A stretch of DNA of 60,474 nt, from the IMG/VR virus record IMGVR_UViG_3300008267_000327, positions 1 through 60,474 of that record; one strand, given 5' to 3'. This DNA comes from a virus. The position numbers and the translations under genes were made by a program. Every line of letters begins with the position of its first letter. The stretch's first letter is position 1. A model generated the notes under the pieces. That model searched no databases, had not been told where the DNA came from, and saw only the letters and a list, made by a program, of their open reading frames with translations. Shown here one piece after another: positions 17,969 through 49,463 of the stretch.

Positions 17969-17976
17969 TATTTATA
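17969..17976 (+). promoter_or_regulatory. TATTTATA late-promoter-like element, 13 nt before ATG
   Basis: TATTTATA is followed by exactly 13 nt of A-rich sequence and ATG 17990. The spacing equals that at 8801-8808/8822 and at 39921-39928/39942, which argues that the element is functional. Confidence 0.55.
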
Positions 17977-35529: not shown

Positions 35530-36126
35530 ATGAAAAAAAACATATCAAAAGATTCACCCAAAATACTTGGGTTGGATGTATCGACAAAGACAACAGGTAT
35601 TTGCCTGTTCGATATTGAATCAAAAGAATTATTGGAGCTAACACACATATCTCCAAAGGTTAAAACTGAAAGTAAAATTGAAGAATTATTGCTCAAAGCG
35701 GCAGTTTTCAGAGAAAAAATACAAACTTATGTTGGGTTAGGAATAACTACAGTTGTTATCGAAGAACCACTCCTTAACTCAAACAATGTCTATACAGTAG
35801 GAACACTAATGCGTTATAATACTTTAATTTGTAAAGAAGTTTATGATGTATTGGGAATCGTTCCTGAATTTATCACCACATATAACTCCCGGAAATTCGC
35901 ATTTCCTCATCTTGTTAAACAGAATGACAAAGGTAAATTTGTCCTGTTTGGAGGATATCCAAAAGATATCGACAAAAAAGTAATTATTTGGGAACTCGTT
36001 GCAAAAAGAGAACCACAAATTCAATGGTTATATACAAAAAATAATACATTGAAAAAAGAAAATTATGATATGTCTGATAGCTACGCCTGTGCTCTTGGTT
36101 ATTTGAAGTCGAAAGAAATTTGGTAA
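35530..36126 (+). CDS. RuvC-like Holliday junction resolvase (RNase H fold)
   Basis: A 198-residue nuclease of the RuvC-like superfamily. Seen: strand and first acidic residue in 'KILGLDVSTKTTGICLFD' (D16), second in 'TTVVIEEPLL' near residue 78, and the final pair in 'YDMSDSYACALGYL' near residue 183. This order D-E-D/D is the RuvC catalytic tetrad. It would resolve branched DNA before packaging or in recombination, acting in place of an endonuclease VII resolvase. It starts 3 nt after the tail gene. The 3' end contains the -33 box of the next gene's promoter. Confidence 0.82.
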   Translation: MKKNISKDSPKILGLDVSTKTTGICLFDIESKELLELTHISPKVKTESKIEELLLKAAVFREKIQTYVGLGITTVVIEEPLLNSNNVYTVGTLMRYNTLICKEVYDVLGIVPEFITTYNSRKFAFPHLVKQNDKGKFVLFGGYPKDIDKKVIIWELVAKREPQIQWLYTKNNTLKKENYDMSDSYACALGYLKSKEIW

Positions 36127-36150
36127 TGTAAATCTCGTTTCATATCTTTG
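36119..36150 (+). promoter_or_regulatory. Bacteroidota-type promoter TTTG-N20-TATCTTTG
   Basis: TTTG at 36119-36122, 20-nt spacer, TATCTTTG at 36143-36150. The box ends 4 nt before ATG 36155, so the mRNA is predicted to be leaderless or nearly so. Confidence 0.75.
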
Positions 36151-36154
36151 TGGT

Positions 36155-36496
36155 ATGAAAGAATTAATTGATAAGTATAAAGAAGCTAAAGAGTATGCCG
36201 ATACTCTTTATAATCAGATATTAGATACCCCCGATGGGTTTTTATATGTAACTTGTCTGCGATGTTACGGTTCTATACGTTGGGAAACCCACCTAAATGA
36301 GTTTGTAACCCAAGACCTCTGTAATGAGTATTACGGAGACAACGGTATTGTTGAGGTTTATACAAATAACCCAAATAACAGTATCGAATCATATTGGGGT
36401 GTTAAGGTTATGACTGAAGAGGAAATTATTAATATGTCAAAAGAAAACATATCAATGACTAGTGCAATAACTAGTTGGATTACAAAAGGACTTTAA
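36155..36496 (+). CDS. hypothetical small acidic protein
   Basis: A 113-residue protein of unknown function. It opens with a charged helix 'MKELIDKYKEAKEYADTLYN', then has 'YVTCLRCYGSIRWETH' with one CxxC pair. It is preceded by a strong host-type promoter whose -7 box lies 4 nt before the ATG, suggesting early, independent expression, as is usual for small takeover or accessory proteins. No membrane segment. Confidence 0.72.
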   Translation: MKELIDKYKEAKEYADTLYNQILDTPDGFLYVTCLRCYGSIRWETHLNEFVTQDLCNEYYGDNGIVEVYTNNPNNSIESYWGVKVMTEEEIINMSKENISMTSAITSWITKGL

Positions 36497-36502
36497 AATA
36501 AA

Positions 36503-36534
36503 TTTGGCAGTTTCAGAACTATTATATACCTTTA
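36503..36534 (+). promoter_or_regulatory. Bacteroidota-type promoter TTTG-N20-TACCTTTA
   Basis: TTTG at 36503-36506, 20-nt spacer, TACCTTTA at 36527-36534, then CATT and ATG 36539. The stretch TTTGG(C/T)AGTTTCAGAA after the -33 box is shared with the promoter at 42127. Confidence 0.75.
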
Positions 36535-36538
36535 CATT

Positions 36539-37000
36539 ATGAAACAACTACCATACATCCAAACATCTACCGCAATCATCGGTTATTCAGAGTCATTAAT
36601 TGCTAAAAACGAAAGTAACGACTGTTTTGTCAGGGCGGTTGCTTCGTCTTTTGACTGTCCTTATGACACCGCCCACGCATGGGTAAAAGAAAAATTTAAC
36701 AGAGAAGACAGAAAGGGAACAAAATGGGCCGTATGTAAAATGGCAACTATGTCATCTCACGGACAAACTTTTAACGAAAAATCAATAAAGGTTGTCAGTA
36801 ATCTATTAACAATAGATTCGAAGAAGAATAGGGTTAAAAGAACCACTCTTAATCAATTCATTAAAAAGTATCCAACAGGGACTTATATCTTGATTGTTAG
36901 GGGACATGCGTTTACATTAAAAGATGGTTCGGTCATTGGAAATACTAGTGATGCTAAATCACTCAAAAAAATTGTTCATGACGCTTTTGAAATAAAATAA
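36539..37000 (+). CDS. putative papain-like (C39/C1-fold) cysteine peptidase-like protein
   Basis: A 153-residue protein with 'ESNDCFVRAVASSFDCPYD' near residues 25-43 and 'ILIVRGHAFTLKDGSVIGN' near 116-134. The pattern NDC-x-x-RA followed much later by a GHA strand and an Asn/Asp is typical of small papain-fold proteins found in phages (catalytic Cys, His, Asn). Whether it is an active protease, a deubiquitinase-like enzyme or an inactive homologue cannot be told. It has its own host-type promoter, and its stop overlaps the primase start by one base. Confidence 0.6.
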   Translation: MKQLPYIQTSTAIIGYSESLIAKNESNDCFVRAVASSFDCPYDTAHAWVKEKFNREDRKGTKWAVCKMATMSSHGQTFNEKSIKVVSNLLTIDSKKNRVKRTTLNQFIKKYPTGTYILIVRGHAFTLKDGSVIGNTSDAKSLKKIVHDAFEIK

Positions 37001-37893
37001 TGATGCAAGAAGAAACTCAAATTGTATTAGAACTTATCGAGGAAGTTCTCGGGGAACCAAAAAAGTCCTATGAAAGCAAACTGCAATTCGGATACAACTG
37101 TTGTGAGTGTGATGAAGGTAGAGGTAAAGGTAATTTAGAAATAAACTTGGAGAAACACGTTTATCATTGTTGGTCCTGTGGAATATCAGGACCACTTGGT
37201 AAATTATTTGATGAATATGGTAATAAGAAGTTAAAGAAAACTTATCTACTAATCCGACCCGACGAGTTCAAAATACAGGAGAAGAAAAAAAATCAACTTA
37301 AACCACCATCCGGGTTTGTTAAAGTCACCGAGGCAACACCTGTTTATCCACCACATAAAGAGGCGTTCAATTATCTTAAAAGTAGGGGAATAACTGATGA
37401 GATTTGTGAGAAGTATAATATTGGTTTAACAACCACCGGTGATTATCAGGGAAGGATTATTATACCATCATATAACAATGAGGGGGAACTAAATTACTTT
37501 ATTGCGAGGTCTTGGAACCCAAAAGCCCGAATGAAGTATAAGAACCCACCTTGTGAGAAAGACCAGATTATCTTCAACGAGAACCGGATAGATTGGGAAC
37601 AGGATATATTCTTATGTGAGGGGGTGTTTGATTCCATATTCTTACCAAACTCAATACCGATGCTTGGTAAGTTTATGTCTGATTTATTGTTTACAACTTT
37701 ATACGAGAAAGCAAAAGGTAATATCACTATATGTCTCGACAGTGATGCTTGGGAGAACAGTTTATCATTATATCACACCTTAAATGGTGGGGTATTATAC
37801 AATAGAATTAAGTTAATCAAATTACCCGGAGATAGTGATATTGCTGATTTGAGGGGAGAAATTAAAGAAGAATATTATTTTAACATTTTATGA
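37000..37893 (+). CDS. DNA primase, DnaG/T4 gp61-like
   Basis: A 297-residue primase that would lay RNA primers for the helicase encoded at 1523. Seen: an N-terminal zinc-binding domain, 'YNCCECDEG' (C34-C37) and 'HVYHCWSCG' (C57/C60); a short linker; and a TOPRIM fold with the acidic motif 'LCEGVFDSI' (E206) and 'CLDSDAW' (D246/D248). Length is somewhat below T4 gp61 (342). Two adjacent ATG codons at 37000 and 37003 are possible starts. It overlaps the next gene by 4 nt (ATGA). Confidence 0.9.
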   Translation: MMQEETQIVLELIEEVLGEPKKSYESKLQFGYNCCECDEGRGKGNLEINLEKHVYHCWSCGISGPLGKLFDEYGNKKLKKTYLLIRPDEFKIQEKKKNQLKPPSGFVKVTEATPVYPPHKEAFNYLKSRGITDEICEKYNIGLTTTGDYQGRIIIPSYNNEGELNYFIARSWNPKARMKYKNPPCEKDQIIFNENRIDWEQDIFLCEGVFDSIFLPNSIPMLGKFMSDLLFTTLYEKAKGNITICLDSDAWENSLSLYHTLNGGVLYNRIKLIKLPGDSDIADLRGEIKEEYYFNIL

Positions 37894-38246
37894 AAATAGG
37901 AATTATTGGAAGTAGAACATTTAATAACTATGAACTTCTTAAAGAGGTCATGTCCGACTACATTTATCAAGGGTCTTTACTTGACTGTGAACTTGTTGTA
38001 AGTGGTGGTGCAAATGGTGCGGACAAACTTGGTGAGAAGTGGGCCAAGGAAAATGGGATTCCCACTCTCATATTCAAACCGGATTGGAATAAGTATGGTA
38101 AATCTGCCGGTTTTATAAGGAATGAAGATATTATAAAAAATTCTGATTTTGTAGTTGTATTTTGGGACGAAGTCTCGAAAGGGACTAAAAGTTCCATAGA
38201 TTTAGCAATAAAACACGATATTCCTGTGAGAATTGTTACTTTTTAG
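37890..38246 (+). CDS. SLOG-family protein (DUF2493/YspA-like)
   Basis: A 118-residue Rossmann-like protein. Seen: 'MKIGIIGSRTFNNYELL' at the N-terminus, 'LVVSGGANGADKLGEKWAKE' (residues 32-51), 'FKPDWNKYGKSAGFIRNEDI', and 'DFVVVFWDEVSKGTKSSIDL'. This is the full motif set of the DUF2493/YspA branch of SLOG proteins, thought to bind nucleotide or nucleotide-derived ligands. Members are frequent in phages; precise function is not known, with suggestions of signalling-nucleotide sensing or counter-defence. It overlaps the primase stop by 4 nt. Confidence 0.85.
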   Translation: MKIGIIGSRTFNNYELLKEVMSDYIYQGSLLDCELVVSGGANGADKLGEKWAKENGIPTLIFKPDWNKYGKSAGFIRNEDIIKNSDFVVVFWDEVSKGTKSSIDLAIKHDIPVRIVTF

Positions 38247-38294
38247 TTCGTTTTTTAGATATTTTCTAAATCTTGTAGATAAGAAAAAAAAACT

Positions 38295-38325
38295 TTTGGT
38301 GGTAACCAAAAAGGTCATATCTTTG
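38295..38325 (+). promoter_or_regulatory. Bacteroidota-type promoter TTTG-N19-TATCTTTG
   Basis: TTTG at 38295-38298, 19-nt spacer, TATCTTTG at 38318-38325. The leader to ATG 38347 is 21 nt and contains TTCTAAATCAAT, which recurs in the leader at 38594-38613. A small hairpin TTTAGA/TCTAAA lies upstream. Confidence 0.75.
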
Positions 38326-38346
38326 TGTTCTAAATCAATTAAGGGT

Positions 38347-38580
38347 ATGAAGAACAACAATATCAAAGTAGGGGATTTCGTTAAAGCGATGTTCAATGGT
38401 TCACCGGTTCGAGGTGTTGTGACAGATATTAAAAAGGGTGTAATAGTAATTGAAAAGTATCAAGGAACGGGTCATTGGGACGTTACAACGGGTTACACTA
38501 CTTACACAGGAACTAATACCTTCTTGAATATAAGAAAAATTGATAGTATCGAAAAAATAAATTTGGCGGTTCAAAAATAA
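38347..38580 (+). CDS. hypothetical small protein, possible SH3-like fold
   Basis: A 77-residue protein from ATG 38347. An upstream in-frame extension would run through the promoter and is rejected. It has short beta-like strands 'IKVGDFVKAMFNG' and 'RGVVTDIKKGVIVIEKY', a pattern compatible with a small SH3- or KOW-like barrel, but this is a guess from strand pattern. It is driven by its own host-type promoter. Its final codons contain the -33 box of the next promoter. Confidence 0.7.
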   Translation: MKNNNIKVGDFVKAMFNGSPVRGVVTDIKKGVIVIEKYQGTGHWDVTTGYTTYTGTNTFLNIRKIDSIEKINLAVQK

Positions 38581-38593
38581 CATCTTACTTTTA
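38562..38593 (+). promoter_or_regulatory. Bacteroidota-type promoter TTTG-N20-TACTTTTA
   Basis: TTTG at 38562-38565, 20-nt spacer, TACTTTTA at 38586-38593, a 20-nt leader and ATG 38614. It starts with TTTGGCGGTT, close to the neighbouring promoters. Confidence 0.72.
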
Positions 38594-38613
38594 CATTCTA
38601 AATCAATAAAACA

Positions 38614-39081
38614 ATGACAACAACTACCACAACTCCGACAACCTCAGTAATCAAATTGACAAAAAACCCGGTATTAGCGGGAGACGTATTTTACGGAAAC
38701 ATCGAACTTACAATCAAGGATAAATCACATAATGTGATTGTATCAAACCATATGAAAGAGGATAAAAAATATGAGTTCCGTTTGGCAACAAAGTGTCAAG
38801 CAGGATTCATCTCAATTTCTGATTATACTGATACACCAAAAGGTGTGATTACTAGTTGGAAAAAAGGTGCTCTTGTTAACATTCAGGTTAAGAATGAGTA
38901 TGGAACTTGGAGTAATGTTTATACTGTAAAAACCGGTAAGTGGCATTCAATTGACAAGTCATTTTTGGATGTGTTGACTGTAGGTGATATGAGACAATCA
39001 TTTCCTGACATGTGTGATGATAATTTGTGGAAAAAGTTAGGTGCTAAAACTTGGGCGGACAAAGCGTTCGTTCAGAACTAA
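38614..39081 (+). CDS. hypothetical protein preceding the tRNA island
   Basis: A 155-residue protein beginning with a Thr-rich run and followed by beta-rich sequence ('VFYGNIELTIKDKSHNVIV', 'CQAGFISISDYTDTPKGVI') and a helical end 'DNLWKKLGAKTWADKAF'. No recognised domain, signal peptide or membrane segment. It has a clear host-type promoter with the same leader type as the upstream gene. The RNA island follows directly after its stop, so the tRNA could be processed from this transcript. Confidence 0.72.
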   Translation: MTTTTTTPTTSVIKLTKNPVLAGDVFYGNIELTIKDKSHNVIVSNHMKEDKKYEFRLATKCQAGFISISDYTDTPKGVITSWKKGALVNIQVKNEYGTWSNVYTVKTGKWHSIDKSFLDVLTVGDMRQSFPDMCDDNLWKKLGAKTWADKAFVQN

Positions 39082-39222
39082 AAAACTAGTCCGCAGGCCA
39101 CGGAATCGAAACACGGAGAACGCCTCTCAGAATAGAGTTCACTCTTGCACAGGCACACTACCTCCCCGAATCGTTTGTCGGCAAAGTTGGCAACTCTTAT
39201 ATGAGGTTCAAAAGTTGCAAAT
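39082..39222 (+). ncRNA. GC-richer structured region upstream of tRNA
   Basis: This 141-nt stretch has no convincing gene and is visibly richer in G and C than its surroundings. It contains several hairpins: CTCT/AGAG around 39125-39138, CCGA/TCGG around 39157-39182, and GCAACT/AGTTGC at 39190-39218 with an inner CTC/GAG. The last hairpin ends 4 nt before the tRNA. It may be a second non-coding RNA, a processing leader, or the remains of tRNA genes. I found no complete cloverleaf in it on either strand. Confidence 0.4.
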
Positions 39223-39308
39223 AGTCAGGTGGCGGAATGGAAGACGCTATACTTAAGCAGTTGAAGCTGGGTAATTCAACAATACAGGTTCAAATCCTGT
39301 CCTGACTA
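39223..39308 (+). tRNA. tRNA-Leu-like (probable anticodon UAA), poorly paired anticodon stem
   Basis: Seen: acceptor stem AGTCAGG (39223-39229) with CCTGACT (39301-39307) and discriminator A; a Leu-type D arm TGGCGGAATGGAAGACGC; and a perfect T arm ACAGG-TTCAAAT-CCTGT. The total of 86 nt fits a type II tRNA with a long variable arm. The loop CTTAAGC would give anticodon UAA (Leu). However, its stem pairs only in about three of five positions, and the downstream GTTGAA/TTCAAC pairing competes with it. Amino acid identity is therefore likely and anticodon uncertain. CCA is not encoded. Confidence 0.7.
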
Positions 39309-39323
39309 CTAAAATTTTTTATT

Positions 39324-39605
39324 ATGACATTTTTTATCAAGTTTATTTTGGTTATGGTTGCCATGATTTTGGCTGACGTTTGTTGGACTATGTATTTCAT
39401 AGAGACAGAAAAGAGAAGGTCAGTACCAGCTGGATTGTGGGGCGCAGCAATTCTACTATTTGGTTCTTTGGTAACGATGAACTATGTAGATGACCACCGG
39501 TTATTAGGTGCTGCGGTTATTGGCTCATTTATTGGTGTTTACATTACAATCGAATGGAAAAAGAAAAAAGAAAAAAATAAGGATAGTGTTTCAAAAGTTT
39601 ATTAA
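39324..39605 (+). CDS. small integral membrane protein
   Basis: A 93-residue protein with three predicted membrane segments: 'FFIKFILVMVAMILADVCW' (3-21), 'GLWGAAILLFGSLVTMNYV' (38-56), and 'LLGAAVIGSFIGVYITIEW' (60-78). It ends in a lysine-rich tail, which suggests a cytoplasmic C-terminus. It follows the tRNA by 15 nt. It could act in superinfection exclusion or lysis control, but nothing specific identifies it. It overlaps the next gene by 20 nt. Confidence 0.75.
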   Translation: MTFFIKFILVMVAMILADVCWTMYFIETEKRRSVPAGLWGAAILLFGSLVTMNYVDDHRLLGAAVIGSFIGVYITIEWKKKKEKNKDSVSKVY

Positions 39606-39906
39606 AGTTAAATTGAGTGAAATAGAAAAACCTCGAAATCTTAGTTGGAGTAAAAGACAATTACGACTCGAAAAAGAACTACTCTCAAAACCTTTGAAAT
39701 ATCCTCTGATAATTTCAAAAGACATGAAATTGTTGGACGGTAATCATAGATACCAAAGTTTATTAAATAATTTTGGAGAAGAATATGAGATAGTTGTTAG
39801 AAAGATTTCAATAACCAAAAGAGTTTATAACCTTTTGGTTTTTCTGTTTTCTCCAATTCTAATACCGGTTGGAGTATTTTATTTTTGTAAGTCAATTTTC
39901 AATTAA
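39586..39906 (+). CDS. ParB N-terminal-like domain protein with C-terminal membrane segment
   Basis: A 106-residue protein, most likely from GTG 39586, which overlaps the preceding gene and follows an AAGGAT purine stretch. Seen: 'FIKVKLSEIEKPRNLSW', 'YPLIISKDMKLLDGNHRYQS' and 'IVVRKI', the sequence pattern of ParB/sulfiredoxin-like nuclease folds, whose conserved 'DGNHR' resembles the catalytic G-x-H-R. A hydrophobic helix 'LLVFLFSPILIPVGVFYF' closes the protein, an unusual addition for this fold. Function unknown; perhaps a membrane-tethered nuclease or CTP-binding protein. Confidence 0.65.
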   Translation: MFQKFIKVKLSEIEKPRNLSWSKRQLRLEKELLSKPLKYPLIISKDMKLLDGNHRYQSLLNNFGEEYEIVVRKISITKRVYNLLVFLFSPILIPVGVFYFCKSIFN

Positions 39907-39920
39907 AGACTCTTTTATTG

Positions 39921-39928
39921 TATTTATA
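39921..39928 (+). promoter_or_regulatory. TATTTATA promoter-like element, 13 nt before ATG
   Basis: TATTTATA ends 13 nt before ATG 39942, the same spacing as at 8822 and 17990. No TTTG box at -33. Confidence 0.5.
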
Positions 39929-39941
39929 TAAAAAAAGTTTG

Positions 39942-41054
39942 ATGAAAGTTATTTTAACAGAAAAACAATATGAAAAACTCAAAGGTGAAATGGAAGAAGC
40001 CTTGGGTGTCCCGGAAGGTATATTAGAAGTAGGGGAAGAAATCTACGATTTGATTATAAAAAATTTGGAAGAATTCGAAGGAGATATTGATGATTTAAAT
40101 CAAGACGGTATTGAATTCGAACACACATTTAAAGTAGGTGACCACTATTTCTATAGAGTAAAATTGAATTTCCAAATTGAAGAACACGAAGAAGCCAAAA
40201 AAGTCGATATGGTTGGAATGAGTTCTGAAAATGAAGCCGAATTAGACGACAGATTTGTTTTACAAAGTAGAAGAGACCCGGATGAGATAATTATAGGATT
40301 TAAATTTTTTATCGAATCAGGACAAGGGGTAGAAGACATAGTTGATTATATAAAAAAATATAGGAAAGAAGATATTCCGTCACTAACTCATGAAATTAAA
40401 CATGCTTTCAGAGACGTAAAACAGAAAGGCGATAAACCTAGAGATAGGTCCATTTATGTTGCAACACAAATGATTAGAGAAACGTTTGGTTATGTTCCGG
40501 CATTAAACGAATTCTTGTTTAATTCATATTTCATACACGTAATAGAAAATGTTGTCAGACCTACAGAAATGGCTGCGGAAATGAGAATCAATAATGTATC
40601 ACAAAAAGAGTTTCTGAATTTCTTTCTAAATACGGAAATGATTCTAAGACTAAAACAAATACAAAATTTCAGTTATACCGAATTCAAAGAAAAATTGAAA
40701 ACAAAAGATATTGACAGAATCAAAAAACTTTTAGACGCCATCGATTCCGATTATGATGGAAAGAGTGATGAAGAAATTGTTAATGAATTTCTCAAATTAT
40801 TTTTAGTCAATTTGACTAACAGTAAAAATGAAGTCATGAAAGAGATTCTGACAAATAATATGTTTGAAAAAATGTTCGGACTTAGAGGAGATAAAGACCA
40901 ATTTTTTAGAAAATTCGTATCATATACTACCAAGTTTGGTTATGATTACGATGCATTTTTTGAGAGTGAAGAAAAATACTTCCACCGGGTTGCGAACCAA
41001 ATGATAAAAAAACTTGCCAAGTTGTATGCTATGGCTAAGAAAGACTCTGAATAA
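39942..41054 (+). CDS. putative zincin-like (HExxH) protein, possibly virion-associated
   Basis: A 370-residue protein from ATG 39942. Seen: 'LTHEIKHAF' with H150-E151-x-x-H154, the zinc-metallopeptidase signature, and downstream acidic residues in 'RPTEMAAEMR' (E209/E213) that could supply a third ligand. The N-terminus 'MKVILTEKQYEKLKGEMEEA' is a short amphipathic helix. The preceding TATTTATA element puts it with the virion genes, so an internal or structural protease is possible. No signal peptide. It might instead be a structural protein in which the motif is chance, but the strand-helix context supports the zincin reading. Confidence 0.65.
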   Translation: MKVILTEKQYEKLKGEMEEALGVPEGILEVGEEIYDLIIKNLEEFEGDIDDLNQDGIEFEHTFKVGDHYFYRVKLNFQIEEHEEAKKVDMVGMSSENEAELDDRFVLQSRRDPDEIIIGFKFFIESGQGVEDIVDYIKKYRKEDIPSLTHEIKHAFRDVKQKGDKPRDRSIYVATQMIRETFGYVPALNEFLFNSYFIHVIENVVRPTEMAAEMRINNVSQKEFLNFFLNTEMILRLKQIQNFSYTEFKEKLKTKDIDRIKKLLDAIDSDYDGKSDEEIVNEFLKLFLVNLTNSKNEVMKEILTNNMFEKMFGLRGDKDQFFRKFVSYTTKFGYDYDAFFESEEKYFHRVANQMIKKLAKLYAMAKKDSE

Positions 41055-41059
41055 TCAAA

Positions 41060-41067
41060 TATTTATT
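41060..41067 (+). promoter_or_regulatory. TATTTATT promoter-like element, 4 nt before ATG
   Basis: TATTTATT, then TGAA, then ATG 41072. Same 4-nt spacing as the copies at 6517 and, on the minus strand, 24553. Confidence 0.45.
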
Positions 41068-41071
41068 TGAA

Positions 41072-42082
41072 ATGAAAGATATTATACTCAAAATCATTAT
41101 GGAAGAGGTTGAAAACCAAAACCCCCTCACCCCTATTGAAGTAAAGTTATTCAAAGAATTAAATAAAGGCACAAACAAGTTAGAGTCAGACAAAAAAATA
41201 TTAGAAAAATTAGATACTATTCTGGCTTATCTATCTATACCAAAAAAAACTGCAAAGTATTATCTTGCTCTTTATAAAGCAAACTATAGACCGGAAGGAG
41301 ACTATCAAAATTTAACTTCAGATGAATTTTTTGGTTTAAGGCATTTACCACCAACAAGAACAACAAACGTTGAGTCGGACACATATTCAACCGCAAAACT
41401 ACCTTTCAAGGGTTCAAATCTTTATGGTAAGTGGGAAAAAGATTCTAAAGGTGTTGAATACTATGTTATTGTCTCTTACAATTGGTATCCAATTTATTTA
41501 TTTAAAGAAGATAAATGGTATAAAATTTATCACCCATATTCTACTTCAACTAGTAAACAAATGTCCAATGTAAATCCAATTGAATATGATTCATCTATTG
41601 GAACGGATGTTATTTTTGTTACAAAAGATGAGATGGGTGCTTTAAGGTATAATGCGACTTATGAGGACATCATGAGTAAAAAACCAAAAGAGTTATTAAA
41701 AAGAAAAGAAGATTTTTTAAGTAAAAGGGCGACATCAGTAGGTGGAGGTAGATGGGGAAATTATATTAAAGTAAAATTCAAAATAACAGACATAAGAGAA
41801 GAAGGAGATAAGGCGGTTATTGATGTTACTGTAATTGACGCCGGACCAACTGAAGGTGACGGTTCAAGAAAAATGATTCCGACAAAAGGAAAATACTTAA
41901 CAGGAGAAATACCTGATATAACTAAAGAAAAGGTAGAAAAAACTATCAAAAATAAAATTTTATTAAATTTCAAACAGTTTCTTGGAAATTTTCCAAAATG
42001 GAGCGAAGAAACCGGTTATGATTTGGATACTTATCCTGAAAAACATACAGTCAAATTTAATTTTATACATCCAAATGTGTAA
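41072..42082 (+). CDS. hypothetical protein, probably virion-associated
   Basis: A 336-residue lysine-rich protein of unknown family. The N-terminus 'MKDIILKIIMEEVENQNPL' is an amphipathic helix ending in acidic residues, similar in style to the starts encoded at 39942 and 55729. The middle contains a beta stretch 'YYVIVSYNWYPIYLFKEDKW', where a ligand or structural domain could sit. Promoter of the TATTTATT class; a strong terminator directly follows, so this is a single- or two-gene unit. Function not recognised. Confidence 0.75.
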   Translation: MKDIILKIIMEEVENQNPLTPIEVKLFKELNKGTNKLESDKKILEKLDTILAYLSIPKKTAKYYLALYKANYRPEGDYQNLTSDEFFGLRHLPPTRTTNVESDTYSTAKLPFKGSNLYGKWEKDSKGVEYYVIVSYNWYPIYLFKEDKWYKIYHPYSTSTSKQMSNVNPIEYDSSIGTDVIFVTKDEMGALRYNATYEDIMSKKPKELLKRKEDFLSKRATSVGGGRWGNYIKVKFKITDIREEGDKAVIDVTVIDAGPTEGDGSRKMIPTKGKYLTGEIPDITKEKVEKTIKNKILLNFKQFLGNFPKWSEETGYDLDTYPEKHTVKFNFIHPNV

Positions 42083-42087
42083 TTAAT

Positions 42088-42118
42088 AATCCCTCCCCAT
42101 AAAGGAGGGATTTTTTTT
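42088..42118 (+). terminator. strong intrinsic terminator
   Basis: An 8-bp stem ATCCCTCC/GGAGGGAT with a 7-nt loop is followed by eight T. It separates the late-type unit upstream from the host-type promoter at 42127. Confidence 0.92.
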
Positions 42119-42126
42119 ATAAAAAA

Positions 42127-42158
42127 TTTGGTAGTTTCAGAAACATTTACTATTTTTA
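42127..42158 (+). promoter_or_regulatory. Bacteroidota-type promoter TTTG-N20-TATTTTTA
   Basis: TTTG at 42127-42130, 20-nt spacer, TATTTTTA at 42151-42158, a 19-nt leader, ATG 42178. The spacer begins GTAGTTTCAGAA, almost identical to the promoter at 36503. Confidence 0.75.
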
Positions 42159-42177
42159 CACCCTAAACAATTACAGT

Positions 42178-42483
42178 ATGAAACCAACTACCAAATCAGC
42201 ATCCGGAACATCATTCCACAACACAACATTTCAAGCAACGCCAAATCAACTTTTAGAATTGTTGGGAGAACCTTATGGTGACTACAATGATGGAAGTGAT
42301 AAGACCAACTTTGATTGGACTATGGAAACTGAAACCGGTGATGTCTTTACAGTATATGATTGGAAATATTACCACGTATTAGATATGAACACAGTTTATG
42401 AGTGGCATATTGGTGGTAAGGGTAAGAATATTACAGAAATTGCGTTACAAGAAATAAATCAATTACTTAATAATAAAAATTAA
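42178..42483 (+). CDS. hypothetical small phage protein
   Basis: A 101-residue protein with 'TPNQLLELLGEPYGDYNDGS' and 'YDWKYYHVLDMNTVYEWHIG', a mixed alpha/beta pattern. No family recognised. First gene after a strong terminator and host-type promoter, so probably an early gene leading the cluster that runs through 46 kb. Four nt separate it from the next gene. Confidence 0.72.
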   Translation: MKPTTKSASGTSFHNTTFQATPNQLLELLGEPYGDYNDGSDKTNFDWTMETETGDVFTVYDWKYYHVLDMNTVYEWHIGGKGKNITEIALQEINQLLNNKN

Positions 42484-42487
42484 TGTT

Positions 42488-42760: not shown

Positions 42761-43412
42761 ATTTAAAAGATATTGCACAAGAAATAAGAAACGTTATTTC
42801 GCAGAAACAATCAGAGTTGGGGTTAGAGTTTTTCGAGGAGGAACACAAATACCAAATGAAGGATACGGATGGGAAAATCAAAAACGACTTTCCCTCCGTA
42901 TCTAAGGTATTAAAATGTTTTTATGACGAGTTCCCAACGGAAGAAGCGGCTTACAAGAAATCAGGTGGAGACCCCGACGAACAAGAAAGGTTGATAAAAG
43001 AGTGGGCCGATGCGGGTGATTACGCAACTAATATGGGTAGTAGAACTCACTTTATCTTGGAAATAAATTGTGGCTTATGGAGAATAAAGATAAGACGGGG
43101 TATGGGTTGGTTATAACTGATTGGAAGACGAACAAAATTAAGAACTTTCAAACAACCCGTTATACCAAAAAAATGAAAACACCATTTCACTTTGTGGATG
43201 ATTATGCACTCGGACACTACTACATTCAGTTACCTCTGTATTGTAAGTTGTTCTTGAAGATGTTGGAGGGTAGTAAGTATGAAAACCTGAGTCTCTATGG
43301 TGGTGTTGTAGTCCTGTTAAAGGATGACTCGGATTACGTGGAGTATAGAATACCAAAAGAAGTCATTAGCACAACGATGCAAATGACAGTAAAAAACTAT
43401 CTTAAAAAATAA
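42757..43412 (+). pseudogene. RecB-like PD-(D/E)XK nuclease gene with internal, frame-changing deletion
   Basis: Frame 1 (42757-43116) encodes the N-terminus of a RecB-like phage nuclease, ending correctly at 'MGSRTHFILE' near residue 104. It then reads out of frame to a stop. From about 43066 the next frame carries the C-terminal half: 'WLMENKDKTGYGLVITDWKTNK' and 'HYYIQLPLYCKLFLKMLEG'. The 'DWKTN' is the second half of the catalytic motif. The middle of the protein, including the PD-type acidic residue usually just before 'KVWL', is missing. The junction lies around 43055-43066 and shows AATAAA-type microhomology. Re-initiation could make two fragments, but neither would hold a full active site. 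Confidence 0.78.
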
Positions 43413-43417
43413 ATAAT

Positions 43418-43858
43418 ATGACAGCAGTAGAATGGTTAATAAATGAACTTCAACTTTATTATGAAGGGAAATCAAAACTTGTTTATTATGAAATTATTGA
43501 ACAAGCCAAAGAAATGGAAAAGCAACAGATGCATAAATGTGCTTCATTTTGGAGAGGTAAAGAAAATAAAATAGAAATACCAATATTTGAACAATACTAC
43601 AATGAAACTTATGGAAGTAAGGGAAGTGATGTTCCTCAATTAAAATATAAAGATGGGACACCAATAAGGTCTTATGATTCTGCTAAAATACAAGAAATGG
43701 TAAAGTTAATGAATGAACCCACATCTTCCCAAACAGAAATATCAGATGAGGAGATTGAGAAGGAAGCGTCAAGGATACACGGGGTAGGTTCTATGCTCTG
43801 GGAAGAAGGTGCTAAATGGTATAGAGAACAATTAAAAAGTAAAATATGTCAAAAGTAG
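43418..43858 (+). CDS. hypothetical phage protein
   Basis: A 146-residue protein beginning 'MTAVEWLINELQLYYEGKSK', followed by a helical segment 'IIEQAKEMEKQQMHKCASFW' and an acidic C-terminus. This start is a common feature of small proteins in Bacteroidota phages; function unknown. It overlaps the next gene by 13 nt. Composition and codon use match its neighbours. Confidence 0.75.
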   Translation: MTAVEWLINELQLYYEGKSKLVYYEIIEQAKEMEKQQMHKCASFWRGKENKIEIPIFEQYYNETYGSKGSDVPQLKYKDGTPIRSYDSAKIQEMVKLMNEPTSSQTEISDEEIEKEASRIHGVGSMLWEEGAKWYREQLKSKICQK

Positions 43859-44703
43859 AAGAATTAAGGGCGAAATACCCAAAAATAACAAACGCAACCT
43901 TCAAAAAATTTGAAGAAGGAGATGAAACAAAAACAAAAAAATACCTACCATTTATGTTAAAATTGTGGGTAAATAGAAGTAGTGAAATTTCAAATTCAAC
44001 AGAACTGGTTAAGTTGGTTAATATGTTTGATGAACTTTTACCATATATTGAAAATAAGGACATTTACCACAAGGACTATGAGGATATTACTTTTTTCCTA
44101 AAAGTCATTAATGATGCGATGAATGAAAAAAATGAAAAAACCTTTGTCCGGAAGGAACATGCAAATGTTCTTCACGAATGTGATGAATATATTTTATTAC
44201 AACCACTAACACATAGAGGTTCATTAAAGTATGGGGCAAATACCAAATGGTGCACTTCAAGTAAAAAAGATAAAAACACTTTCGAAAGATACACTAAAAA
44301 TGGATTTCTCGTTTATTTTTTATCAAAAAAAGAAGATAAGTCAGAAGACGTAAAAAAATTAGCTTTTTTTTCTAACTATGGTGATGACCCCCTACTTTCC
44401 GGTGTAGAACTATATGACTCTTTGGACAAACGAATTTCTTTTACCAGAGTCGTAGAAGGTGGATGGGATATAAACCAATTATTTGCGGCAATGGCCATCT
44501 ACCGGGCGAACTTCACAAACGAAACTAGAGTGACCTATGCAAAACAATCAATCAATAAGGCGGTCTTGACCCTCACAAGTATAGATTTCGACTTATTGAG
44601 ACAACAAATCGATATAGTTGAGAAATCAAAAAATAATGACTATATTAGTGATATAAAAGAAAAAATAAACGAGTTTATAAAACAAATTCCAGTAAACATA
44701 TGA
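43846..44703 (+). CDS. phage protein with 'KYGANTKWCTSS' motif, function unknown
   Basis: A 285-residue protein. The central 'LTHRGSLKYGANTKWCTSSK' followed by 'FERYTKNGFLVYFL' is a conserved pattern I know from uncharacterised proteins in many tailed phages (YGxxTKWCT with an invariant Trp-Cys). It suggests an enzyme or ligand-binding site, not a structural role. The ends are helical and lysine-rich. Overlaps: 13 nt with the previous gene, 4 nt (ATGA) with the next. Operon membership with nuclease and recombination genes hints at DNA metabolism or host takeover, but this is inference. Confidence 0.7.
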   Translation: MSKVEELRAKYPKITNATFKKFEEGDETKTKKYLPFMLKLWVNRSSEISNSTELVKLVNMFDELLPYIENKDIYHKDYEDITFFLKVINDAMNEKNEKTFVRKEHANVLHECDEYILLQPLTHRGSLKYGANTKWCTSSKKDKNTFERYTKNGFLVYFLSKKEDKSEDVKKLAFFSNYGDDPLLSGVELYDSLDKRISFTRVVEGGWDINQLFAAMAIYRANFTNETRVTYAKQSINKAVLTLTSIDFDLLRQQIDIVEKSKNNDYISDIKEKINEFIKQIPVNI

Positions 44704-44939
44704 GCGAAATAATCGGACAACCCCAAATCTCCCTAAAAGAACAACCCACAATAGTTTGTGAGTCATGTGGTTCTGAATTCTTTAGAGAAGTAACAATGTT
44801 AAAAAAAGTATCACGACTACTAACCGGAGCGGCAAACGACACAATTGTTCCATTCCCAACTTACATGTGTAATAGTTGTGGTTATGTTAATAAAGATTTA
44901 AGAATATTTGATGACGAAACACCAAAAATTGAAGAATAA
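44700..44939 (+). CDS. small zinc-ribbon protein
   Basis: A 79-residue protein with two CxxC knuckles, 'CESCGSEFF' (near residue 20) and 'YMCNSCGYVN' (near 57), separated by about 35 residues. This spacing suits a zinc ribbon. The acidic C-terminus 'FDDETPKIEE' is flexible. Such proteins may bind DNA, RNA or RNA polymerase. It overlaps the previous stop by 4 nt and is followed after 1 nt by the gp47 gene. Confidence 0.78.
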   Translation: MSEIIGQPQISLKEQPTIVCESCGSEFFREVTMLKKVSRLLTGAANDTIVPFPTYMCNSCGYVNKDLRIFDDETPKIEE

Positions 44940-44940
44940 A

Positions 44941-45427
44941 ATGATAAAAAGACTATTACACTTTTCTGATTTACATATCAGATTATTTAAGGACCACGAC
45001 CTTTACAAAAGTATTTTACAGACTGCCTTGTCTGAGTGGAAGGCACTTGCTCCTGACAGAATAGTATTCACCGGAGACCTGGTACACAGTAAAAACCAAA
45101 TGACACCTGAACTTATCGAGTTTGTTGCTTGGGTATTAACTGAATGTTCCAAGATTGCAAAAACTGTTGTCATTATTGGTAATCACGACTTCCTTGAGAA
45201 CAACACCCAAAGGTTGGATGCTCTAACACCAATCATCGATTCACTCAACAATGAAAATGTTACATACCTAAAAAACAGAGGTGTATATGAGGATAGTAAT
45301 ATAAATTGGTGTGTATATTCTCTTATGGAACACAACATTCCACCGGATATTAGTAAATCTGATAAAATTCTATATAAACTCTATTGATTCCCTCGTTGAA
45401 GGTAATGAAAAATTAGTTAATTATTAA
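44941..45427 (+). pseudogene. 47: recombination endonuclease subunit gp47 (SbcD/Mre11-like), truncated by internal deletion
   Basis: The readable frame (44941-45387, 148 aa) holds the first half of a metallophosphoesterase: D10/H12 in 'FSDLHIR', D46 in 'FTGDLVHS' and N81/H82/D83 in 'IGNHDF'. It ends in 'ISKSDKILYKLY' and a stop. T4 gp47 is 339 aa, and the later GH-type histidine motifs are absent. From about 45371 another frame reads 'FYINSIDSLVEGNEKLVNY' to TAA 45425-45427, one base before the next gene, as the original end should. So an internal piece of roughly 190 codons was lost with a change of frame. Without the missing histidines the nuclease should be inactive, although gp46 downstream is intact. 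Confidence 0.8.
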
Positions 45428-45428
45428 A

Positions 45429-46046
45429 ATGGAAGTTAAACTCAATTTATCCAACACAGAACATAAAGAACTAATATCTTATTGCAATCTTAATGACTTA
45501 TTGGTTAGTGAAGTAGTCAAGAAATCCTTTACAACTGGTTTTAATATTGAGAGATATGGCTTATTATCAGAGGGTGCTAAAGTTATAGAAAAGGAGGTAG
45601 AGAAGATTGTGGAAAAAAGAATTGAGATTCCTGTTGAGGTTATAAAAGAAGTCGTTAAAATTGAATATGTGGAGATTGAGAAACCTGTAGAAGTAATTAG
45701 AGAGGTTGAAAAAATTGTTGAAGTTCCTGTTGAAAAAGAAGTGATAAAGATAGTTGAGGTTGAAAAAGTAACGGAAGGAACTACACAGGTCATTGAAGTA
45801 ATAAAAGAAGTTGAAAAGATTGTGGAAGTCCCGGTTGAAGTAATAAAAGAGGTTATAGTAGAAAAGGAACAGGATACTACAAAACTTAAAGCGTTAGAAG
45901 AAACATTACAAAAATTAAAATCCCAACTCATAGAAAAAAATAAAATAATTGAAGGGTTGGAAACTAAAATAAACCAAGTTCAAGCAAACTCCTCATCACA
46001 AGTTACATATTTGAGGGGTTCAAATTTGAACGATAAACTTTTTTAA
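45429..46046 (+). CDS. Val/Glu-rich repeat protein with coiled-coil end
   Basis: A 205-residue protein with three parts: an N-terminal 55 residues 'VKLNLSNTEHKELISYCNLN' that resemble a short DNA-binding or oligomerisation unit; a central tract (about 56-145) of imperfect units such as 'EVIKEVEKIVEVPVE'; and a C-terminal coiled coil ('KALEETLQKLKSQLIEKNKI'). The repeat alternates hydrophobic valine/isoleucine with Glu/Lys and may form an extended beta or helical fibre. Function unknown. It follows the gp47 remnant by 1 nt. The 3' end contains the -33 box of the next promoter. Confidence 0.75.
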   Translation: MEVKLNLSNTEHKELISYCNLNDLLVSEVVKKSFTTGFNIERYGLLSEGAKVIEKEVEKIVEKRIEIPVEVIKEVVKIEYVEIEKPVEVIREVEKIVEVPVEKEVIKIVEVEKVTEGTTQVIEVIKEVEKIVEVPVEVIKEVIVEKEQDTTKLKALEETLQKLKSQLIEKNKIIEGLETKINQVQANSSSQVTYLRGSNLNDKLF

Positions 46047-46056
46047 ACTATATTTG
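46025..46056 (+). promoter_or_regulatory. Bacteroidota-type promoter TTTG-N20-TATATTTG
   Basis: TTTG at 46025-46028, 20-nt spacer, TATATTTG at 46049-46056, then CATT and ATG 46061. A textbook host-type promoter with 4 nt between box and ATG. Confidence 0.8.
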
Positions 46057-46060
46057 CATT

Positions 46061-46417
46061 ATGACACAATTAGTATTATGGATGATTATGGCTTATGGAA
46101 TAACCAATATCGTCGTTTATGGAAGTATTTTCAACGGACCGAGAGAATTTATCAGAAAGTGGTCTGAATCAACATTACCATTCAATTCATTAGGGACATT
46201 CATCAAGAATATGACTAGCTGTCCTATGTGTTTTGGAACTTGGTTTGGATTTTTTGCAGGAATTTTCTTATATTCACCAGTACACGAAATATTAGGTGTT
46301 AGTTCATACGGTTCTTGGTTTTTCGATGGAATGTTAAGTTCCGGAGCAGTATGGGCAATCAACTCAATTATCGAATGGTTCGAACAAAACAGACCAAATA
46401 ACAATCAAATATTATAA
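46061..46417 (+). CDS. DUF1360-like membrane protein
   Basis: A 118-residue protein with three hydrophobic segments: residues 1-22, 'GTWFGFFAGIFLYSPVHEIL' (near 66-85), and 'FFDGMLSSGAVWAINSIIEW'. Between the first two is 'NMTSCPMCFGTWFGF', the C-x-x-C-x-G-x-W signature of DUF1360 phage proteins. The family is widespread in tailed phages and uncharacterised. Expression from its own strong host-type promoter with a predicted leaderless mRNA suggests early synthesis. One nt separates it from the next gene. Confidence 0.78.
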   Translation: MTQLVLWMIMAYGITNIVVYGSIFNGPREFIRKWSESTLPFNSLGTFIKNMTSCPMCFGTWFGFFAGIFLYSPVHEILGVSSYGSWFFDGMLSSGAVWAINSIIEWFEQNRPNNNQIL

Positions 46418-46418
46418 T

Positions 46419-46622
46419 ATGCCAAAATCAAAACAAAGAAAAGGACATAAGAAAAAAGTCCAAGTAAGAACCGCGGCTCTTAAATCAGAACAACTTAAGT
46501 TCCAAAAAGAAATGATGGAGAAAATGGAAGAATTGAGACAGAAGTTTCAAGAACAGTCAGGAACAACACAAAACCCAGAAACAAATGAAATGGGACTTAT
46601 TCAACCCAAAGCCGGAATTTAA
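46419..46622 (+). CDS. small basic coiled-coil protein
   Basis: A 67-residue protein with a strongly basic start 'MPKSKQRKGHKKKVQVRTAA' and a helical coiled-coil stretch 'EQLKFQKEMMEKMEELRQKF'. The basic end could bind nucleic acid. No family recognised. It lies in an operon between the DUF1360 gene and gp46 (10 nt gap). Confidence 0.7.
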   Translation: MPKSKQRKGHKKKVQVRTAALKSEQLKFQKEMMEKMEELRQKFQEQSGTTQNPETNEMGLIQPKAGI

Positions 46623-46632
46623 TTATAAAAAT

Positions 46633-48963
46633 ATGAGTCATAAACTAGACACAACTACATTAGAGAACCCTTACATACAAGTTATTTGGGAAGACATCCC
46701 GGAGAACTTCACCCAAGAAAGAATCAAATCTGTTAAGCAGTATTTCCAAAAGAAATATAACTCAAACAACATTAATGTTGTGACCAAAGTTAAGACGGAA
46801 GAAGGTGTTCAACAAACCATAGACATTTCTGCAAATGTTATGGATAAGAACTACCAAAACGAATTGGTTAAGTCTCTTGTTGAGGCAAAAGGTCATACCG
46901 CTCTTTTACCAAGTATTATGAATATCGATACTGCGGTTGAACAGAAAATGTTGTTAGACGAAGTTGAAATTACCCCATTTAAGAAGTGGTATATCAGGAA
47001 AATTGAGTTCAGTAATTTCTTATCTTATGGGGAGAATCAAGTGATTGATTTTGATAAGTGTAATGGTATTACTGTGGTTGAGTCAGACCCACCTAACTTC
47101 GGAGGTAAGACAGTTCTTACTGTGGATTTGTTAATGTTTCTATTTTTCAATACAACTACCAAAACACAAAAGGCGGAAGAAATCTTTAATAGATTTACCG
47201 ATAAAAATAAAGTAAGTGTTAGTGGTGAGATTACTATTGATGGGGAAGATTACATAATCGCAAGAAATATTGAGAGGAAGAAAAACAAGGCGGGAGAATG
47301 GAATGTTAAAACCGAGTTGGAATTCTTTAAGAAACTTGCCGATGGACAGTTATTAAACTTCACCGGAGAACAGAGAAGGGAAACTGAAAACTTCATTAAG
47401 AAATCTATTGGAGAACAGGATGATTTTCTTATGACCATCTTAACCACCGCATCAAATTTGGAAGATTTAATTGACGCTAAACCAACAGCAAGAGGACAGG
47501 TGTTATCAAGATTCTTGGGGTTGGAGTTTATTAAGAAGAAAGAAGAAACTGCCAAGGAAATCTATTCTGAGTTCTCAAAGGGTATGATGTCTAATGTCTA
47601 TAATACGGAGTCATTAAGACAAGATAATGAAACCAGTAAATCTGAGATTGATAATTTAAAACAAGAAATCAGAGATGCTGATGAAAAAAATCTTGATGTT
47701 GAGCAGAGGTTAAAGAAGGGTCAGGACTATAAGGATAATCTTCTCAAATCAAAATATACTGACTTGGACCAAGAATTGGTTGTATTGAAACCTGAGATTC
47801 TTAAAACCGGCATTGGGGATTTCGAAAAGAAAATTGAACAAATAGAACAACAAATCAAAGATGTCAATGTGGTTGAACCAAAAGAGTTCTACCACGAAGA
47901 CAAACACGATAAAGTTAAAGAAGACTTAAACAAAACCAAGATTGAACTTAACAGGGCTCACGATAGATGGGAAGACATAAGTGATATGGTTACCAAGTAT
48001 GGTAATGGGGTTGAATGTCAACACTGCGGTATTAAGTTGATGGAAGCAGAACTTACCAAAAAGAAAATATCAGAACTTGATGAGTGGAAACAAAAAGTGG
48101 ACGAACTTACCGATAAAGTTAAGGGACTTGAAGAAGAGGAAAAGTCATTTAGAAACTTGAAACAAGAATTTGATACCTACGAGAGAAACAAACTTATTAA
48201 AGAAAAGTATGAATTGTCTTTGGAATCAGAACAAATGAAAATGGACCAACTCAAAGATAAATTGGTTAGGTATGAAGGAGTTCAGGAGAAGATTAAAAAG
48301 AACAATGAGATTGATGCTCAACTCATAAAGGCTAATATGAGAATTGATGAATTGATGAACGAGAAAAGAGGATATGAAAGAATCAAGGTAACAAACAATC
48401 TCAACGTCGACAAGTTCAATGAAAGAATTGAGAAGAACAACGAGATAATCACAAAAATTGCGGAGGAGTTTGAGAGAGAGAAGTTGTATAAAATTTACTT
48501 GGATGTGTTTGGAAAGAATGGTATAACCAAGATGATTATGAAAACCATGATGCCACTTATCAATCAAGAACTTCAGAGATTATTAGTTGATTCTTGTTAT
48601 TTCAATTTGGAAATCAGAATCAGTGATAAAAACGAGGTTGAGTTCATCATGATTGATGGTTCCACCGGTATCGAGAAACTTATGTCCTCAGGTTCAGGAT
48701 ATGAAAAAACAATTGCGAGTATGGCTTTGAGGGCGGTATTGGCTAAAGTAAGTTCATTACCGAAACCAAATATCCTTGCTTTTGATGAGGCGTTCGGAAA
48801 GATTAGTAATGAGAACCTTGAGTTAGTTGGAGAGTTCTTCGGTAAGATTAAAAGTTATTTCGAAAAGATATTTGTAATTAGCCATAATCCACTTATTAAT
48901 AATTGGGCTGATAGCGTTGTTAGGGTAACTAAAGTAGATAATGTTAGTAAAGTAACCCAATAA
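46633..48963 (+). CDS. 46: recombination endonuclease subunit gp46 (SbcC/Rad50-like ATPase)
   Basis: A 776-residue SMC-like ATPase from ATG 46633. Seen: 'IEFSNFLSYGENQVIDF' near residue 125, Walker A 'PPNFGGKT' near 156-163 (the first glycine of the usual GxxGxGK is replaced), long coiled coils on both sides of a zinc hook 'CQHCG' near 461, the signature 'MSSGSGYEKTIASMALRA', Walker B 'ILAFDEAFGK' near 712, and the H-loop 'FVISHNP'. It should pair with gp47 to process DNA ends. An extra N-terminal domain of about 115 residues precedes the ATPase head; T4 gp46 (560 aa) lacks it. Intact, unlike its partner in this window. Confidence 0.9.
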   Translation: MSHKLDTTTLENPYIQVIWEDIPENFTQERIKSVKQYFQKKYNSNNINVVTKVKTEEGVQQTIDISANVMDKNYQNELVKSLVEAKGHTALLPSIMNIDTAVEQKMLLDEVEITPFKKWYIRKIEFSNFLSYGENQVIDFDKCNGITVVESDPPNFGGKTVLTVDLLMFLFFNTTTKTQKAEEIFNRFTDKNKVSVSGEITIDGEDYIIARNIERKKNKAGEWNVKTELEFFKKLADGQLLNFTGEQRRETENFIKKSIGEQDDFLMTILTTASNLEDLIDAKPTARGQVLSRFLGLEFIKKKEETAKEIYSEFSKGMMSNVYNTESLRQDNETSKSEIDNLKQEIRDADEKNLDVEQRLKKGQDYKDNLLKSKYTDLDQELVVLKPEILKTGIGDFEKKIEQIEQQIKDVNVVEPKEFYHEDKHDKVKEDLNKTKIELNRAHDRWEDISDMVTKYGNGVECQHCGIKLMEAELTKKKISELDEWKQKVDELTDKVKGLEEEEKSFRNLKQEFDTYERNKLIKEKYELSLESEQMKMDQLKDKLVRYEGVQEKIKKNNEIDAQLIKANMRIDELMNEKRGYERIKVTNNLNVDKFNERIEKNNEIITKIAEEFEREKLYKIYLDVFGKNGITKMIMKTMMPLINQELQRLLVDSCYFNLEIRISDKNEVEFIMIDGSTGIEKLMSSGSGYEKTIASMALRAVLAKVSSLPKPNILAFDEAFGKISNENLELVGEFFGKIKSYFEKIFVISHNPLINNWADSVVRVTKVDNVSKVTQ

Positions 48964-48967
48964 AAAA

Positions 48968-49438
48968 ATGAAGAAATTAAAACCAAATCAAATAGAAAAA
49001 ATAGAAGAAACTTTAAAGGATTTTAAATGTTTACTTCAAAGGTATAGGGAAGTTAAAGATAATTCTGAAAAGTTAAATTTGTTTTTCACTAGAAATAGAA
49101 ATCCAATTTGGGATATAACAAATATAAATTTTTTCAGAACCGGATTAAAATCTGAAGTTGCGGTTCAAGACAAAAGTCAAATTTTAGTTGATGACCATTT
49201 TATCCAAAGAAGTAAATCTTTAAAATTTATATTTGACGAGTTAGATAACCAGGAGGATATGTCTTTAGAAGATTTTATTAATTTAGTAAAAAGATTATGT
49301 TCTACTGTAAAATTGACCCGAGAAGAACATAATAAGGTTACCCTGTTTGCAAAGAAAAACCCAACATATCTAAATTATGAGACATATGTTGCTTGTGGAA
49401 TAAAAGTAGATGGATTATCCAATTTTATTTTGAAATAA
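48968..49438 (+). CDS. hypothetical protein
   Basis: A 156-residue, lysine-rich, mainly helical protein ('KIEETLKDFKCLLQRYREVK', 'MSLEDFINLVKRLCSTVKLT'). No recognised domain. It begins 4 nt after gp46 and probably shares its transcript. The -33 box of the next promoter overlaps its stop region. Confidence 0.72.
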   Translation: MKKLKPNQIEKIEETLKDFKCLLQRYREVKDNSEKLNLFFTRNRNPIWDITNINFFRTGLKSEVAVQDKSQILVDDHFIQRSKSLKFIFDELDNQEDMSLEDFINLVKRLCSTVKLTREEHNKVTLFAKKNPTYLNYETYVACGIKVDGLSNFILK

Positions 49439-49459
49439 AATATAAAGGTATTATATTTG
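49429..49459 (+). promoter_or_regulatory. Bacteroidota-type promoter TTTG-N19-TATATTTG
   Basis: TTTG at 49429-49432, 19-nt spacer, TATATTTG at 49452-49459, then CTTC and ATG 49464. Again exactly 4 nt from box to start codon. Confidence 0.78.
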
Positions 49460-49463
49460 CTTC

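Follow-up and report, generated by a model that had tools for sequence, protein, structure and literature searches.

The IMG/VR virus record IMGVR_UViG_3300008267_000327, 60,474 bases long and analysed here over its whole length ("the window"), belongs to a large phage of Bacteroidota bacteria and carries host-type promoters that end exactly 4 nucleotides (nt) before an ATG. We consider it probable that such Bacteroidota-type promoters place the first transcribed base (+1) on the A of the AUG and so give leaderless messenger RNAs (mRNAs), the two geometries found between promoter and gene mirroring a rule of the ribosome. Most likely, a host-type RNA polymerase would start on the A of the AUG from a TTTG element at −33 and a TAnnTTTG box at −7, and the ribosome would begin at the 5'-terminal AUG of the leaderless mRNA. 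Two geometries would be permitted, the AUG standing either at the 5' end or behind a leader of roughly at least 8 nt; leaders shorter than about 8 nt would suit neither mode and hence would be avoided. Both the host-type promoters and a second, late-type set defined by the motif TATTTATA would use both geometries, so that the split would mirror what the host ribosome accepts and not a switch of early takeover. The spacing, its enrichment, its conservation and the same split in both promoter sets are read directly from the sequences.

The window, in which 71 genes were called, is probably a fragment of a larger genome, since its relatives reach 326 kb. Genome-wide counts come from ten related phage records read at length, with 2742 called genes (reading stopped at base 100000 of 102417 in G003, 320000 of 321139 in G004 and 320000 of 326291 in G006); the remaining related phage records were read only as loci of up to about 20 kb. 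Gene starts were taken from a simple first-ATG open reading frame (ORF) caller, leaving out of the counts genes that start within 60–150 bases of the end of a joined sequence (the limit varies by script) and ORFs of fewer than 50 codons (80 codons in one script, and 60 open codons in the count of start codons and −33 elements). Relatives of the window genes were collected by three scans, and a search for DNA-level relatives of the window among named phages found none. Two Prevotella replicons (880 kb, 801 genes) served as host comparator.

Two classes of promoter spacing

An earlier note on this DNA had named seven two-element promoters in the window, four ending 4 nt before an ATG and three followed by leaders of 19–21 nt, and all seven are present as it described them:

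36119–36150, + strand: promoter, TTTG (36119–36122), N20, TATCTTTG (36143–36150), then TGGT-ATG; 4 nt to the ATG at 36155
36155–36496, + strand: gene of 113 amino acids (aa), function unassigned, predicted leaderless
36503–36534, + strand: promoter, TTTG-N20-TACCTTTA (box at 36527–36534), then CATT-ATG; 4 nt to the ATG at 36539
36539–37000, + strand: gene phrog_3754, 153 aa, function unassigned, predicted leaderless
38295–38325, + strand: promoter, TTTG-N19-TATCTTTG; 21 nt to the ATG at 38347
38562–38593, + strand: promoter, TTTG-N20-TACTTTTA; 20 nt to the ATG at 38614
42127–42158, + strand: promoter, TTTG-N20-TATTTTTA; 19 nt to the ATG at 42178
46025–46056, + strand: doubtful promoter, TTTG-N20-TATATTTG (box at 46049–46056), then CATT-ATG; 4 nt to the ATG at 46061
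46061–46417, + strand: gene phrog_781, 118 aa, function unassigned
49429–49459, + strand: promoter, TTTG-N19-TATATTTG (box at 49452–49459), then CTTC-ATG; 4 nt to the ATG at 49464
49464–49952, + strand: gene of the pyrimidine dimer DNA glycosylase family (PF03013; Pfam 76.7 bits, cut-off 23), predicted leaderless

The final base of the box is A in the promoters of 36539, 38614 and 42178. Sites of the form TTTG-N18..21-TAnnTTTR within 60 nt upstream of the 71 genes fall four times at distance 4 and once each at 19, 20 and 21, and no further two-element site occurs there at any other distance. When each upstream region was shuffled, a mean of 0.004 sites fell at distance 4 (maximum 1 in 5000 shuffles). 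The bare box TANNTTTRNNNNATG, counted without the −33 element and irrespective of genes, is found 6 times against 4.4 expected, not above chance. A −7 box TAHHTTTG with a −33 TTTG about 19–20 nt upstream is the arrangement of Bacteroidota sigma-A promoters, and the description of these sites as host-type holds, both elements standing at the expected spacing. The common word ascribed to the three longer leaders is also borne out, as CTAAA.?CAA occurs in 9 of 76 two-element leaders of the ten related records against 0.5 after leader shuffling. Family searches assigned no function to most of the leaderless proteins. Between the leader-class genes lies a tRNA-Leu gene (anticodon aag) at 39223–39309, and by eye a hairpin followed by a T-run at 42092–42121, downstream of a gene that ends at 42082 and ahead of the promoter at 42127, resembles an intrinsic terminator.

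The split extends well beyond the window. In the ten records, 282 TAHHTTTG boxes lie at most 50 nt from a start, and their distances are bimodal: 6 at 0–3 nt, 47 at 4, 24 at 5–7, 6 at 8–12, 108 at 13–24, 54 at 25–35 and 37 at 36–50, so the two discrete leader classes proposed from the window are recovered genome-wide. Permuted motifs place 0 to 7 boxes at distance 4. The −33 element played no part in choosing these boxes or a set of 65 distance-4 sites; nonetheless, a strict TTTG at the −33 spacing accompanies 29 of the 47 boxes at distance 4 and 64 of the 108 at 13–24, against 277 of 3017 boxes anywhere, and the 65 sites carry T at −36, −35 and −34 in 49, 45 and 50 cases, G or T at −33 in 58 and G at −32 in 39. 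Counting both promoter sets, roughly a third of the phage genes with a promoter box nearby upstream are predicted to be leaderless.

The transcription start implied by this spacing follows from the hosts. RNA sequencing of Flavobacterium johnsoniae is reported to place the start most often 4 or 5 nt past the −7 box, which runs from T−12 to G−5 (PMC6847099), and start mapping in F. psychrophilum likewise sets the box at −12 to −5 (PMC9723704). With the box so numbered, a gap of 4 nt makes the A of the ATG +1; the four distance-4 mRNAs of the window are thus predicted to begin on the A of the AUG, in agreement with what the earlier note had expected. From the same geometry we infer translation from a 5'-terminal AUG.

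The start codons themselves could be misassigned, with translation beginning downstream and the ATG at +1 being incidental. The use of the first-ATG rule, with at least one miscalled copy (in G002), would allow this, but the peak is specific to distance 4 and to ATG (53 ATG, 2 GTG and 3 TTG there), the codon expected of leaderless mRNAs. Furthermore, the start codon of 49464 is supported because all 22 matches of its protein in phage records, including actinobacterial phages, begin at residue 1, and the relatives of 36539 also match from residue 1. We therefore regard misassignment as very improbable.

Conservation of the leader class

Conservation of the 4-nt spacing in relatives, on which the earlier proposal depended, holds for two of the four window sites, is patchy at 36155 and fails at 46061. 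All 10 loci related to 36539 retain the distance, and the 4 nt that separate box and start read CATT or CATC. For 49464, 42 loci give 18 distinct upstream sequences besides that of the window, 13 of which have TAnnTTT(G/A) at distance 4; the others comprise two one-mismatch boxes at distance 4, one box at 26 and two sequences without a box. Because the sequence between the −33 and −7 boxes varies widely among these upstreams, the spacing has been kept while the promoter changed. In one homolog of the pyrimidine dimer glycosylase (G018:C1:95829-96305) the reading frame contains one TAA. The primase gene at 37000 lacks such a promoter in the window, but 14 of the 37 members of its cluster carry one 4 or 5 nt before the start. 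The longer leaders are retained in the relatives found of 38614 (6 loci) and 42178 (3 loci, the relative lying in L012/L005/L049); for 38347 there was no relative among the loci collected.

These data also bear on the possibility that the genes are translated mainly from longer mRNAs reading through from upstream, the abutting promoter being accessory. A simple scan recognised a terminator in the 100 nt upstream of only 1 of 35 two-element distance-4 genes, and in the window the upstream genes end 25–42 nt before 36155, 36539 and 49464, as such read-through would have it. On the other hand, the spacing is conserved despite the changing promoter sequence, and by eye several 49464 orthologs (L056, L061, L102, G007) have a G/C-rich hairpin-like stretch with a T-run directly upstream, which makes read-through as the main source of these proteins distinctly unlikely.

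Each gene tends to keep its leader class over evolution. Among ortholog pairs with diverged upstreams, the class is concordant in 402 of 520 pairs for TAHHTTTG (262 by permutation) and in 217 of 229 for TATTTATA (119 by permutation), and none of 5000 shuffles reaches the observed value for either motif; an earlier test with looser classes was matched by 7 of 20,000 shuffles. These tests exclude members whose upstream is at least 60% identical to that of a kept one, and the final test also excludes G008.

In G008 (L172-L185; relatives L107, L109 and L110), leaderless genes are nearly absent from both promoter sets. In the other nine records the leaderless share is 0.27–0.54 for TAHHTTTG and 0.20–0.45 for TATTTATA; counting genes as independent, G008 has 1 of 22 against 65 of 156 elsewhere for the former (p 3e-4) and 0 of 44 against 90 of 246 for the latter (p 2e-8). 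For 24 G008 genes the orthologs in other records are leaderless; a motif could be recognised at seven of the 24 in G008, and six of these seven are leadered. As G008 is one lineage, this difference counts as one evolutionary event at most.

A more mundane account is compaction, in which short intergenic space pushes the promoter against the ATG and leaderlessness is a by-product without a role. The median gap to the upstream stop on the same strand is indeed 28 nt for two-element distance-4 sites versus 56 nt for those at 13–24, and at several sites, 36155 and 46061 among them, the −33 element falls within the end of the preceding gene. Compaction contributes, yet it predicts neither the empty zone at 8–12 nt nor the agreement of class between orthologs, and G008, whose gene density equals that of the other records (368 genes in 270 kb), is nearly without leaderless sites; as a full explanation it appears rather unlikely. 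A bolder view, to which we give limited credence, takes leader length as a heritable, promoter-independent translation class, whose leaderless mode G008 would have lost in both sets at once. Early and late genes would then each be fixed as leaderless or leadered throughout the genome, an extension we hold just as tentatively; equally speculative is the idea that the initiation machinery of host or phage (e.g., bS21 or an initiation factor) would decide whether a 5'-terminal AUG is used.

A probable late-type promoter set with the same split

Of the 752 occurrences of the motif TATTTATA in the phage records, 342 precede a start by at most 30 nt, compared with a median of 5% for 56 letter-permuted 8-mers; the other high-scoring permutations, such as ATATTTAT, represent the same word in shifted, overlapping frames. 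The distances from TATTTATA to the start again fall into two groups, with 90 at 3–5 nt, 20 at 6–10 and 200 at 11–20. Neither Prevotella nor the phages crAss001, phi14:2, FCL-2 and B40-8 show enrichment of the motif at starts. In the cultured and annotated relative immuto, a Flavobacterium phage (MW353175, L191-L194), 32 of 233 annotated starts have TATTTAT in the 40 nt before them, including those of the terminase, portal, tail sheath, tail completion, baseplate hub and tape measure genes, and the position of TATTTAT before structural genes marks it as late-type there. Immuto boxes of the form TATTTAT(A/T) also stand 3–4 nt ahead of the ATGs at 10527, 81525 and 142474. By its placement, TATTTATA is likely a late promoter of large Bacteroidota phages, and would act as a late promoter in the phage of the window too. 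The two sets seldom share a gene: 309 genes have the TATTTATA set (as HTATTTATA), 293 have TAHHTTTG and 21 have both, against about 33 if independent. Besides its occurrence upstream of other window genes, TATTTATA is found in each geometry, and the window also encodes a possible reader of either promoter set:

6517–6524, + strand: TATTTATA box, leaderless geometry; 4 nt to the ATG at 6529, a baseplate-wedge gene
17969–17976, + strand: TATTTATA box, leadered geometry; 13 nt to the ATG at 17990
51001–51801, + strand: RpoD-like sigma factor (phrog_351, 178.8 bits)

The sigma protein has 72 viral relatives, and its best plasmid-borne matches come from Bacteroidota (up to 41% identity); among host genomes it was met at three loci, none from Bacteroidota. 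In a tree of the protein with counts per locus, too few sites per locus were present to place gains or losses.

The earlier note had read the leaderless mRNAs as early ones, and the two classes as regulated translation, the leaderless class being translated selectively at takeover. Because the TATTTATA set, which precedes structural genes in immuto, shows both classes, leaderlessness is not early-specific, and its confinement to early genes was rejected. In favour of a stage switch, the class is gene-specific and conserved, and the distance-4 share exceeds that of Prevotella, where a weaker excess is seen (47 of 282 boxes versus 8 of 139; Fisher p 0.002). A gene for bS21, a protein proposed to favour translation of phage mRNA (PMC9723584), is present in 6 of the 21 phage records searched (G001, G004, G005, G006, G007 and G016). 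Nevertheless, the leaderless shares given above are the same in late-type and host-type sets, and leaderlessness is therefore no marker of an infection stage. The class is also present in G009 and in the window, in neither of which a bS21 gene was found (both records being fragments). The presence of bS21 does not follow the class, and the link between them was dropped as unsupported. Hosts also have a leaderless minority. In F. johnsoniae, leaders exceed 10 nt in 87% of predicted transcripts (PMC6847099); leaderless mRNAs make up 5.5% of 890 coding sequences in F. psychrophilum (PMC9723704), and about 3.7% of the 5' untranslated regions are reported as shorter than 10 nt in Bacteroides thetaiotaomicron (PMC7366714). 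No evidence was seen that leaderless genes are set aside for takeover, and we judge regulated translation at that stage improbable; the simplest account of the empty zone lies in the requirements of the ribosome.

Comparison with hosts, other phages and known systems

Several observations weigh against the reading of these sites as promoters of leaderless mRNAs. At 36155 the promoter is absent from most close relatives: three of the 10 loci, or 2 of the 7 distinct upstreams, retain distance 4; distant orthologs in G005 and G009 also have a distance-4 promoter. At 46061 the distance is kept in none of 34 relative loci, the box reading TATATTTT in two of them (L020 and L022), and this gene was dropped as a firm leaderless member. 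The TTTG of the 46061 site falls in the conserved coding end of the gene at 45429–46046, a gene with a repetitive, charged coding sequence and runs rich in V, E and K. The distance-4 start sites are predicted from spacing, and the first-ATG caller gives a wrong start for some genes, e.g., the G002 copy of 49464. Because similar upstreams were filtered out by an ungapped comparison, the agreement of class between orthologs could come partly from still-homologous promoters that gaps have displaced. In the host comparison two Prevotella replicons stand in for the phage's own host, and two-element promoters taken by themselves show no significant difference at 4–7 nt (39 of 122 in the phages, 5 of 25 in Prevotella; p 0.34). 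Finally, immuto, crAss001, FCL-2 and B40-8 have no TAHHTTTG at distance 4 and phi14:2 has one; just 4 of the 233 immuto starts have the box a short way upstream. With distance 4 nearly absent from these five phages, the class is not general to Bacteroidota phages, and no phage in culture was found to carry the full host-type distance-4 class.

Nor is it unique to the phages studied here, as leaderless mRNAs are already known in bacteria, Bacteroidota and phages, and leaderless genes are a known minority in Bacteroidota hosts. In the literature searched (titles and abstract openings, with most subscription journals and all preprints outside its scope), no description was found of a leaderless class in Bacteroidota phages or of a two-geometry rule across two promoter sets. 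To our knowledge, Bacteroidota mRNAs lack Shine-Dalgarno sequences. The way in which Bacteroidota ribosomes select their start codons is a matter of current study; phages with 0-nt and leadered genes across two promoter types, and one lineage without 0-nt genes, offer a natural comparison for what permits leaderless initiation. Furthermore, large Bacteroidota phages would have in TATTTATA a late-type promoter, and the spacing of the boxes eases the prediction of gene starts in such genomes.

The T4-type late promoter is TATAAATA, a short A/T box near the start, read by a gp55-type sigma factor with a clamp. TATTTATA resembles it as a short A/T box near the start that precedes structural genes in immuto, and immuto is annotated with T4-like gp20 and gp23. 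The motif on the sense strand here is, in contrast, the reverse complement of TATAAATA, which itself occurs on the sense strand before 133 of 2739 genes, scattered and without comparable peaks. The bS21-encoding Bacteroidetes phages of lakes (PMC9723584) resemble the 317–326 kb relatives of the window in genome size, lake habitat and bS21; the words "promoter" and "leaderless" do not occur in the main text of that report. The leaderless mRNAs reported from Bacteroidota hosts (PMC9723704, PMC7366714) share with the phages the sigma-A-type promoter and the implied geometry; in hosts they form a small minority measured by RNA sequencing, whereas in the phages they are predicted, amount to roughly a third and span two promoter sets. 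Leaderless phage transcripts were first observed in lambda (PMC3160421), and phage transcripts have been remarked as often leaderless (PMC5312081). In those cases, as here, phage genes have mRNAs starting at or near the AUG; unlike them, the class in these large phages, which infect a phylum without Shine-Dalgarno sequences, is defined by a conserved promoter spacing and has a leadered counterpart, from which an empty zone separates it.

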